Shown: piece after piece, positions 31,074 through 32,754 of the stretch | Layout: the number at the start of each line of letters is the position of its first letter | Position numbering within the stretch: position 1 is the stretch's first letter | Origin: Qipengyuania marincola | Lineage (GTDB): Bacteria; Pseudomonadota; Alphaproteobacteria; Sphingomonadales; Sphingomonadaceae | Length of the DNA stretch: 64,000 bases | Assembly: GCF_029688625.1 (NCBI RefSeq) | Contig: NZ_JARULC010000003.1 | Coordinates: forward strand, 620,001-684,000 | Direction of reading: 5' to 3' | Notes under the pieces: model-generated | The model's input: the letters and a program-made list of their open reading frames with translations, nothing else | Told to the model about the DNA's origin: nothing | Databases searched by the model: none | Translations under genes and position numbers: made by a program

Positions 31074-31502
31074 TTAGCGAGGCGTCGCCACATAGGGAAG
31101 CGCGTCGAACCCTGCATCCCCCGAACGCCAGAAGGTGACTCGGCCCGCCGCGACGATGGCCCAGACCATCCCGTCGCCGGCTGCCATTGCGGTATCGGTG
31201 GCGGACGGCTCGGCCCGGCCATTGGGGTGGGAGTGGTAATAGCCGATGACCTGCGGCCCGCCCTCGCGTGCTTCGCGGTGCGCATCGATCAAAGCTTGCG
31301 GGTCGATCTCGAAATGGACTGCAGGGTCGGGATGGACGTTGGGGGCGGGGAGGATGGCACCGATGCGCTCGCTTTCGCCGAGGAGGATGCCGCAGCATTC
31401 GATCGGATGCGCTGCCTCAGCCTCGGCGAGCAACTGGTCCGCGACATCTTGCAATACTACCAAGTCCGTTCGCCCTGAGCTTGTCGAAGGGCCGCACTTC
31501 AC
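31074..31502 (-). CDS. JAB/JAMM-domain metalloprotein (Mov34/MPN/PAD-1 family)
   Basis: A zinc metallo-isopeptidase-like protein. The JAMM signature is complete: Glu in HPIECCGILLGE, the HSHPNG histidines in GYYHSHPNGRAEPSATD and the Ser/Asp that follow. Bacterial stand-alone members act on small sulfur-carrier tails or unknown isopeptides. The GTG at 31502 gives 142 residues, but its first dozen codons (KCGPSTSSGRTD) come from a REP-like repeat. A TTG at 31463 just after the repeat gives 129 residues and is probably the original start. The GIY-YIG gene starts only 13 bases away on the other strand, leaving little room for promoters. Confidence 0.85.
   Translation of the reverse strand: MKCGPSTSSGRTDLVVLQDVADQLLAEAEAAHPIECCGILLGESERIGAILPAPNVHPDPAVHFEIDPQALIDAHREAREGGPQVIGYYHSHPNGRAEPSATDTAMAAGDGMVWAIVAAGRVTFWRSGDAGFDALPYVATPR
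31465..31494 (-). repeat. REP-like repeat, left inverted copy
   Basis: A 30-base unit with core CCCTTCGACAAGCTCAGGGC, reading on the minus strand away from the GIY-YIG gene. It matches the copy at 31794-31823 at 29 of 30 positions. The core can fold (GCCCT with AGGGC). I recall this core as a dispersed repeat of sphingomonads and erythrobacters. Confidence 0.85.
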
Positions 31503-31515
31503 TTAGGCGCAACCG

Positions 31516-32754
31516 ATGCCGTTCTGGGCCTACATGCTACATTGTCGTGGCGGCGCTTTCTACACCGGACACACGGAAGATTTGGAGTATCGGCTCGCGC
31601 AGCACCAAGTTGGAGCGCTCAGGGGCTTTACCAGTCAGCGATTGCCCGTCGAGCTGGTCTGGTCCGAGGAATTTCCAACCCGTGACGAGGCATTGGAGGC
31701 GGAACGCAGATTGAAAGGCTGGTCGCGAGCCAAGAAGATGGCGCTTATCCGCGGCGATTGGGAGAGGATATCGCGCTTGGCAAAAAAGAAGGACGGCCCT
31801 TCGACAAGCTCAGGGCAAACGGATATTCTGGATGGAAGCGTCCTTTCCACCGGCCGCCTGGACAAGGCGCTGGCCGAGGCGAGCGGATTGTCGCGCGAGC
31901 GGGTGAAAGGGCTGGTCGCCGACGGCGCTGTGGAACTGGACGGAAAGCCGGCAACCAGCGGGTCCGCCAAGGTCGAGCCCGGTGCGCGTTTCACCATCGC
32001 CCTCCCACCGCCGGAGCCGCTGGCCGCAGAGGCTCAGGACATCCCGCTCGACATCGTGTTTGAGGACGATGACCTTCTGGTCGTGAACAAGCCGGCCGGG
32101 ATGGTCGTCCACCCCGCGGCGGGCAATCCGGACGGGACGCTGGTCAATGCCCTACTCCACCACTGCGCGGGGCGGCTGTCCGGCATCAACGGCGTCGCGC
32201 GGCCCGGGATCGTCCACCGGATCGACAAGGATACGTCGGGCCTGCTGGTCGTCGCCAAGTCCGATGCCGCGCATGAGGGGTTGGCGAAGCAGTTCGCCGA
32301 CCATTCGATTTCGCGGCGCTATCTTGCCGTCTGCGCGGGCCATCCGAACCCTGCGGAGGGCTCCATAAGGGGCCGCATCGGCCGTTCCGACAAGGATCGC
32401 AAGAAGATGGCCGTGCTCCCCGATGATGCCACGCGCGGCAAGCATGCCGTCACGCATTACCAGACGAAGCAGCGCCTCGACCACGCCGCGCTGATCGAAT
32501 GTCGCCTCGAAACCGGTAGAACCCACCAGGTTCGCGTTCACTGTGCGTCAATCGGTCATCCGCTATTGGGAGACCCTGTCTACGGTCGCACTCCCAAGCC
32601 GCTCCGCGCGACGCTTCAGCAGCTGCAATTCGCCCGCCAGGCGCTCCACGCAGCCAGCCTCGGATTCATTCATCCTATCAGCGGCGAAAGCTTGGATTTC
32701 TGCGCCGAATTGCCGCGCGACATGCGGGAACTCATCGACGAAACCGCACGTTGA
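31516..32754 (+). CDS. rluD: RluD-type pseudouridine synthase, in-frame with an N-terminal GIY-YIG nuclease domain
   Basis: A continuous 412-residue frame. Residues 1-85 are a complete GIY-YIG domain of the small URI-type: FWAYMLHC, AFYTGHTEDLEYRLAQH, and the catalytic Glu in EAERRLKGW. Residues 93-101 (GPSTSSGQT) are encoded by the REP-like repeat. The rest is a full RluA-family enzyme: an S4 domain (LDKALAEASGLSRERVKGLV), catalytic Asp in GIVHRIDKDTSGLLVV, and LETGRTHQVRVHC. It should modify the 23S rRNA helix 69 uridines, as RluD does. Whether the nuclease is really fused is open: a TTG at 31777 with GGAGAGGA upstream can start a normal-length RluD alone. Confidence 0.85.
   Translation: MPFWAYMLHCRGGAFYTGHTEDLEYRLAQHQVGALRGFTSQRLPVELVWSEEFPTRDEALEAERRLKGWSRAKKMALIRGDWERISRLAKKKDGPSTSSGQTDILDGSVLSTGRLDKALAEASGLSRERVKGLVADGAVELDGKPATSGSAKVEPGARFTIALPPPEPLAAEAQDIPLDIVFEDDDLLVVNKPAGMVVHPAAGNPDGTLVNALLHHCAGRLSGINGVARPGIVHRIDKDTSGLLVVAKSDAAHEGLAKQFADHSISRRYLAVCAGHPNPAEGSIRGRIGRSDKDRKKMAVLPDDATRGKHAVTHYQTKQRLDHAALIECRLETGRTHQVRVHCASIGHPLLGDPVYGRTPKPLRATLQQLQFARQALHAASLGFIHPISGESLDFCAELPRDMRELIDETAR
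31761..31779 (+). other. Candidate internal start for rluD (GGAGAGGA ... TTG)
   Basis: A strong Shine-Dalgarno match (GGAGAGGA, 31761-31768) lies 8 bases before an in-frame TTG at 31777-31779. Starting there gives a 325-residue RluD, the usual family length, and would leave the GIY-YIG part as a separate overlapping product without its own stop codon. Confidence 0.45.
31794..31823 (+). repeat. REP-like repeat, right copy
   Basis: The second 30-base copy of the repeat, in inverted orientation to the copy at 31465-31494 and 299 bases from it. The only difference is G versus A after the core. It is translated in frame inside the GIY-YIG/RluD reading frame. Confidence 0.85.

Follow-up and report, generated by a model that had tools for sequence, protein, structure and literature searches.

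Many bacteria carry short palindromic repeats, whose copies number from tens to thousands, and the locus described here raises the question of which enzyme spreads them. It lies in a stretch of 64,000 nucleotides of the genome of Qipengyuania marincola (contig NZ_JARULC010000003.1, positions 620,001 to 684,000; hereafter the window), where a small gene for a GIY-YIG nuclease stands between two outward-facing inverted repeats at the junction of a JAMM/Prok-JAB gene and rluD. The favoured reading, to which a probability of about 0.72 is given, is that this feature is one copy of a mobile element of the repetitive extragenic palindrome (REP) or REP-doublet-forming-hairpin (REPIN) type, whose only protein would be an Slx1-like GIY-YIG nuclease that recognises and nicks its own repeat. 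Such repeats bound GIY-YIG genes, they do so in inverted orientation, their type pairs with the nuclease lineage, their copy number correlates with the presence of additional GIY-YIG genes, the elements are polymorphic for presence and absence, and the dispersed copies share the ends of the gene-bearing element. From these features we infer recognition, cleavage and a driving role of the nuclease in movement.

A complete GIY-YIG domain between inverted repeats

The repeat core, CCCTTCGACAAGCTCAGGGC, has exactly two matches in the window at up to three mismatches, at 31472-31491 on the minus strand and at 31797-31816 on the plus strand, the mean expectation from shuffled sequence being 0.02. 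The full arms are of 30 nt, 29 of them matching (inverted-repeat score 27), and their offsets from the domain are -60 upstream and +56 downstream. The two inverted 30-base repeats of the initial annotation (31465-31494 and 31794-31823, 29/30 identity) were reproduced, and the GIY-YIG domain between them is complete (PF01541 match, 2.8e-15).

The encoded protein has 97 aa, in which a Pfam search found no second domain. Residues Y6, Y16-x-G18, R26, H30 and E63 are invariant in 17 aligned sequences, and the protein carries the GIY and YIG motifs, the central Arg and the C-terminal Glu of the GIY-YIG superfamily. Its structure is predicted with a pLDDT of 94.7. The closest matches in fold and sequence are UPF0213 (YhbQ-like) proteins (1zg2 and 1ywl, E < 0.001), Slx1 (6seh, 7cq2) being a weaker match. 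Judged from these comparisons, the window protein is a bare Slx1-like GIY-YIG domain with conserved catalytic positions. Slx1 is an enzyme of branched DNA that in eukaryotes partners with Slx4. The source genome contains two GIY-YIG matches, the window gene and one in a 735-aa frame that is presumed to be UvrC.

Bounding of GIY-YIG genes in the family and beyond

The association between GIY-YIG genes and inverted repeats is general and extends well past the window. In the family, inverted palindromes with an inverted-repeat score of 18 or more (flanks of 300 and 350) enclose 48 of 70 GIY-YIG loci. At the same loci the corresponding counts are 5 of 3141 for control windows and 2 of 533 for open reading frames (ORFs), the ORFs coming from the 40 longer loci. 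The 70 loci are a first set of 30 and the next 40 in listed order, from 99 genomes with at least 150 matches; one match on a short contig (G082) and the window's own locus were passed over. At the majority of bounded loci the arm on the upstream side starts about 45-75 bases ahead of the domain and the one on the downstream side about 50-95 past it, with some outliers. A repeat of type A, B, C or D is present within 400 bp of 58 of the 70 loci, on both sides in 46 of them. A repeat of known type is also found near 15 of the 17 loci that score below 15, by laxer patterns and with no control for that step.

Bounding also reaches across several phyla: in named genomes it is seen at 48 of 74 loci, and in 1 of 1182 control windows. 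These loci are the best 80 of 582, about half of them from sphingomonads, less six dropped for a short flank, and they were found with a profile from a narrow alignment. The bounded ones include loci of Bacteroidetes, Chloroflexi, Nitrospira, Uhrbacteria, LCP-89, Deltaproteobacteria, Endozoicomonas and Bradyrhizobium, while those of Planctomycetota, Myxococcota, Omnitrophota, Ignavibacteriales, Anaerolineae, Acetothermia and others fall below the bounding threshold. UPF0213/YhbQ-like genes differ from the window nuclease, in spite of their likeness in fold and sequence, since none of 15 is bounded in a phylum sample of 28 loci (sorted by eye on motif; two loci without the domain owing to misplaced coordinates).

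The enrichment of GIY-YIG genes between inverted copies, on which the initial annotation had made its proposal depend, is large in both the family and the named genomes. Since many of the genomes contain dispersed copies of these repeats, it might be supposed that common intergenic REPs happen to flank the gene, by coincidence or through ascertainment. Such an explanation is hardly conceivable in view of the same-locus controls and of the unbounded UPF0213/YhbQ-like genes, and chance flanking was rejected on those controls.

A GIY-YIG gene of Neisseria gonorrhoeae (L253 2501-2704) sits among ATTCCCGC..GCGGGAAT repeats, which are of the dRS3 type; there is no feature at this place in the incomplete gene table of the collection. 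A different arrangement, unlike the usual doublets, is that of G026 (C1:1181226-1181505, L053), where five type-A-like repeats stand in tandem on the same strand, with a spacing of 65-66 bp, beside a GIY-YIG gene.

Pairing of repeat type and nuclease lineage

Nucleases of subfamily I (YxGHTD..., IKGWSRAKK), to which the window protein belongs, are accompanied by repeats with the foot CCGTTCG and a core GAGC..GTCGA, and those of subfamily II (YIGVTSNL..., REKQLKxW) by repeats of the form GTCAT-stem-ATCCA. A tree of 71 nuclease domains, built without the repeats and with many forks unresolved in this short domain, shows a single switch of repeat superfamily (51 labelled rows, 27 of them A or B and 24 C or D). 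When six repeat labels are distinguished, including 'none', 20 changes are counted against 43.4 for shuffled labels, and none of 200 shuffles is as low.

The stems of type I repeats covary: 191 of 200 cells are paired, the shuffled mean being 142.6 and the maximum 157. Their predicted folding is no stronger than that of shuffled sequences (z -0.74 to +0.37), and for this reason the hairpin reading of type I is drawn from the covariation. Superfamily II repeats fold strongly, with z from -4.5 to -5.5. Their features are those of CGTC REPs, namely a CGTC or TGTC foot, A-T and then T-A at the stem base, a CCA tail and head-to-head doublets, the foot and tail being in the covariation set partly a result of how its copies were chosen, since these were sought with GTC and CCA and kept at 6 or more of 8 pairs. 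This superfamily fits the 'CGTC REPs' of Di Nocera et al. (2013). The window repeat is not a CGTC REP, because it has the foot CCGTTCG and a predicted stem of 5 bp with a loop of 11 nt (a weak prediction) instead of a CGTC foot, a stem of 8-9 bp and a CCA tail.

Palindromes at both ends of the gene and the strong folding of superfamily II would also be expected of regulatory hairpins, that is, terminators or RNA stabilisers placed around a gene that does not move. This explanation is very improbable: type I repeats show no such folding, many genomes have tens or more copies distant from any GIY-YIG gene, cassettes and doublets vary in presence between congeners, and eroded cassettes exist.

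Copy number and transposase genes

With up to three mismatches the source genome contains 13 core matches, against one for a reversed-pattern control. Copies were counted in 80 of the 99 family genomes, the 19 omitted (0-3 matches) having been chosen by hand and not at random, and an extra GIY-YIG gene was taken as any PF01541 match beyond the one presumed to be UvrC. Where GIY-YIG has one match in the genome (16 genomes), the median number of type-A copies is 0.5 (maximum 4), and in the 64 others it is 13 (maximum 168; p=3e-7); for type D the corresponding medians are 0 (maximum 10) and 4.5 (maximum 241; p=2e-4). An extra GIY-YIG gene is present in all 26 genomes with at least 20 type-A copies and in all 13 with at least 20 type-D copies; a Y1_Tnp domain is present in 6 and 3 of them, respectively. 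The same relationship holds within the genus, where, after two genomes less than 80% complete were dropped, the median is 0 copies in 20 single-match genomes (15 of them with zero) and 9 in 38 others (p=1e-5).

The REP-associated tyrosine transposase (RAYT) was rejected as mobiliser of the window repeat. The source genome has no match to Y1_Tnp (PF01797), a domain found in 14 of the 80 family genomes, and none of 15 Y1_Tnp loci, taken from 18 matches, lies within 400 bp of a repeat of type A, B, C or D.

Dispersed doublets

The source genome has 11 core copies other than those of the window element, and of the 10 that were aligned (L012 was omitted as dissimilar) 8 form doublets of about 90 bp. 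Their orientation is nearly constant. For instance, among the matches listed for five genomes, neighbouring type-A copies no more than 500 bp apart are arranged as '-+' in 22 cases, as '--' in 4 and as '+-' in none, and in G102 there are 27 neighbours in one orientation and 1 in the other. All 55 type-D neighbours among the matches listed have one orientation, 51 of them at 50-118 bp (mode 62) and 4 at 369-374; three of the latter (G006, G026, G087) bracket a GIY-YIG match, and the fourth is in G033.

In the congener G148, 19 copies were retrieved, of which 17 read as doublets of 90-94 bp, and the doublet ends align with both ends of its GIY-YIG element, inner arms included. On this alignment the doublets look like cut-down elements. 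They are also polymorphic: a doublet upstream of the presumed lpdA is present in the source genome and not in seven relatives, and G148 has a separate doublet elsewhere in the same spacer.

The two arms of type-A doublets usually differ in their stems (L262-L280, L001-L011), for instance CCC/GGG in one and GGG/CCC or GTG/CAC in the other, as if annealing of arm to arm were being prevented. Of 34 doublet ends from the flanks of L262-L280, 22 have A and 9 have G beside the foot, which might point to a weak preference in the choice of target.

The JAMM-rluD junction in relatives

The junction was surveyed in 60 congeneric genomes, 59 of which have rluD and 58 of which could be read. The gene with both its repeats is found in six; two (G113 and G147) carry eroded repeats with remains of the gene, and in 50 neither gene nor repeats could be detected. 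The initial annotation had named repeats at this junction in relatives lacking the gene as evidence that would count against it; a type-A scan with up to 3 or 4 mismatches found none at the 50 empty junctions, and the two junctions without an intact gene hold eroded repeats that enclose a decayed gene, not gene-free repeats. In a tree of rluD from 30 congeners the filled state has to change 6 times, all changes being forced by supported branches (G148, for example, is filled and G142 is empty), and the same junction is also filled in G009, which belongs to another genus (2 of 71 loci, window included). Behind this pattern may lie gains of the element or, alternatively, its loss when filled alleles were exchanged for empty ones.

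A box of divergent starts similar to CATCGCGCATGGCCCTAGCATG is common to most empty junctions and absent from filled ones, and the filled window allele of rluD has no such start box. Within the box (L087-L115, L144-L172) the starts of JAMM, which is presumed, and of rluD diverge and are very close. Neither of the outcomes that would have counted against the initial annotation was seen, and its interpretation is supported, with the reservation that the cassette did not insert cleanly: the start-codon box of most empty junctions has been replaced, and the cassette may have come to this site by transposition or by allele exchange. Simple insertion was rejected, sequence being replaced at the sites compared; a recent horizontal arrival of the element at this junction was rejected as well, the identities of element and flanks given below lending it no support.

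The scattered filled state, the filled junction in another genus and the box that most empty alleles keep and filled ones have lost are all features expected of homing. The nuclease would then cut the empty rluD allele, the filled allele would be copied in through recombination between species, and the repeats would be incidental; homing enzymes are described as cutting the uninterrupted target allele (PMC1564403). Homing as the only process is nevertheless quite unlikely, since it leaves unexplained the many copies at unrelated sites and the pairing of nuclease and repeat, and since the divergence of the element follows that of its flanks.

The window element and its neighbours

The features of the element are listed in Table 1. 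The initial annotation had the repeats read into both neighbouring genes, and the translated edges were confirmed: the JAMM frame starts with MKCGPSTSSGRTD, inside the left element end, and the right repeat translates as GPSTSSGQTD in the direction of RluD. However, RluD does not merely gain the repeat, because GIY-YIG and RluD share a single open frame of 412 aa (31516-32754, ATG at 31516) that passes through it. In this frame the repeat is the linker, and the TTG at 31777-31779 is the last common start codon before S4. The frame is open in 6 of 6 filled congeners and also in G009. The element has also affected a host gene, replacing the rluD start and leaving an in-frame fusion in every filled congener found. 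The orthologous element of G148 also measures 357 bp.

Table 1. Positions of the element, its parts and the flanking genes in the window
Feature	Position	Strand	Remarks
Whole element, foot to foot (CCGTTCG ... CAAACGG)	31466..31822	+	357 bp
Left terminal repeat, type A	31465..31494	-	foot CCGTTCG + palindrome CCCTGAGCTTGTCGAAGGG
Left inner arm	31492..31510	+	CCGCACTTCACTTAGGCGC; similar to inner ends of dispersed doublets
GIY-YIG nuclease, subfamily I	31516..31806	+	domain 31525-31737
Right inner arm	31780..31796	+	GCAAAAAAGAAGGACGG; similar to inner ends of dispersed doublets
Right terminal repeat	31794..31823	+	inverted copy of left (29/30)
JAMM/Prok-JAB gene, host left flank	31074..31502	-	first codons fall within element
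rluD, host right flank	31824..32754	+	S4 + pseudouridine synthase; frame fused to GIY-YIG

Proposed mechanism and its alternatives

The ends of the element are outward-facing palindromes with an unpaired foot, CCGTTCG here and CGTC in the sister superfamily. The nuclease would most likely recognise the foot and hairpin of its own lineage's repeat, in single-stranded DNA or in a cruciform, and would most likely nick there, after which host replication or repair would copy or move the bounded segment. Shorter doublets consisting of the ends only (mostly about 50-120 bp between cores, or about 92 bp overall) would be mobilised in trans and would make up the bulk of the dispersed copies. Nicking of its own ends, guided by structure and sequence, is the simplest reading because these ends are palindromic and have an unpaired foot. 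As to the analogy with REP/RAYT that the initial annotation drew, the architecture is indeed analogous, and it is mobilisation by the nuclease that we infer.

Several points weigh against this mechanism. Cleavage and movement are deduced from sequence comparison, and to our knowledge a lone nuclease of about 100 aa has no obvious strand-transfer chemistry. Five of the 20 single-match congeners (G123, G140, G150, G151, G153) hold 2-17 copies, and 4 of the 38 with an extra GIY-YIG gene have none; genomes bearing Y1 are richer in copies, although not significantly (type A, 15.5 vs 4.5, p=0.22; type D, 9.0 vs 1.5, p=0.063). The identity between the source genome (G000) and G148 is 86.8% for the element, 90.0% for rluD and 84.4% for JAMM, so that no recent transposition has been caught, the element being about as diverged as its flanks. 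Both at rluD, where the start-codon box was lost, and upstream of the presumed lpdA, sequence has been replaced and not simply added to. No target-site duplication was found in G148, where 2 of 17 doublets share at least 3 bases against 1.0 expected. Finally, the repeat-type labels come from patterns written once the arms had been seen, type I repeats lack a folding signal as described above, and just 4 of the 7 subfamily I or II genes in the phylum sample are bounded (control 3/420). The copies in the five single-match congeners may be relics after gene loss, or may have been mobilised otherwise.

Copies without an extra GIY-YIG gene and the non-significant excess in Y1-bearing genomes would also suit a GIY-YIG gene that is a passenger, the repeats being moved in trans by another host or transposon enzyme and the captured gene spreading along with them. 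We know of no strand transfer by a GIY-YIG domain alone, which speaks for this possibility, as does the link between GTAG-type REPs and the HUH enzyme RAYT (PMC3733652). It is unlikely all the same: other genes are seldom bounded (2/533 ORFs), Y1_Tnp is missing from 20 of the 26 genomes rich in copies and 0 of 15 Y1 loci have the repeats (Y1 being the sole transposase family searched), and the nuclease lineage predicts the repeat type. The GIY-YIG nuclease is the leading candidate for spreading a large class of repeats reported without a mobiliser. Because a candidate enzyme is named for each repeat type, the question of the mobiliser can be tested directly: each is a specific, small and expressible protein, and matching of nuclease and repeat is predicted.

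Comparison with known systems

The architecture is that of a REP plus a nuclease and hence of an already known kind; what appears to be new is the GIY-YIG gene within it. No paper linking GIY-YIG genes to these repeats was found, in a search outside which lay preprints, most subscription journals and the CCGTTCG repeat itself.

The nearest likeness is to REP/RAYT REPtrons and REPINs, which also consist of a small nuclease gene between inverted, footed palindromes, with inverted doublets and a repeat-specific pairing. GTAG REPs are associated with RAYT, a Y1 HUH enzyme (PMC3733652). A nuclease bounded by inverted REPs and doublets elsewhere were both found here, but two defining features of RAYT systems are missing, because there is no HUH gene and no GTAG foot: the enzyme is GIY-YIG and not HUH Y1, the feet are CCGTTCG or CGTC, and Y1_Tnp is absent from 20 of the 26 copy-rich genomes. 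With CGTC REPs, superfamily II shares the CGTC/TGTC foot, a stem that starts mostly with A-T and T-A, the CCA tail and doublets in one orientation. In Di Nocera et al. (2013; PMC3733652), CGTC REPs are equated with Neisseria dRS3 (CGTC-1) and Rickettsia RPE-4/6 and are reported to have no association with transposase genes, the question being left open there; in contrast, such repeats bound GIY-YIG genes here.

Free-standing GIY-YIG homing endonucleases share with the window nuclease the catalytic superfamily and presence or absence at a conserved site. Unlike them, the window element is bounded by palindromes, its protein has no further Pfam domain, and related repeats are found at many sites. 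The dispersed doublets resemble miniature inverted-repeat transposable elements (MITEs) in sharing their ends with a longer gene-bearing element; the difference from MITEs and insertion sequences is that neither a target-site duplication nor a known transposase family was found here.

Should the nuclease turn out to be the mobiliser, these elements would form a separate class. It is rather probable, on the sequence comparisons made here, that such a class of transposable elements exists in several phyla, no account of it having been met in the papers searched: elements with palindromic ends, autonomous by virtue of a single Slx1-like GIY-YIG protein of about 100 aa, together with abundant satellites made of the ends only. 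It would include the CGTC REPs (Neisseria dRS3 being one of them), for which no dedicated transposase was reported, and would have originated independently of the HUH-based REP/RAYT systems. Bacteria would then have a second REP-plus-nuclease system, of separate evolutionary origin, which would offer a simple model of selfish DNA within genomes and possibly a new structure-guided nickase.

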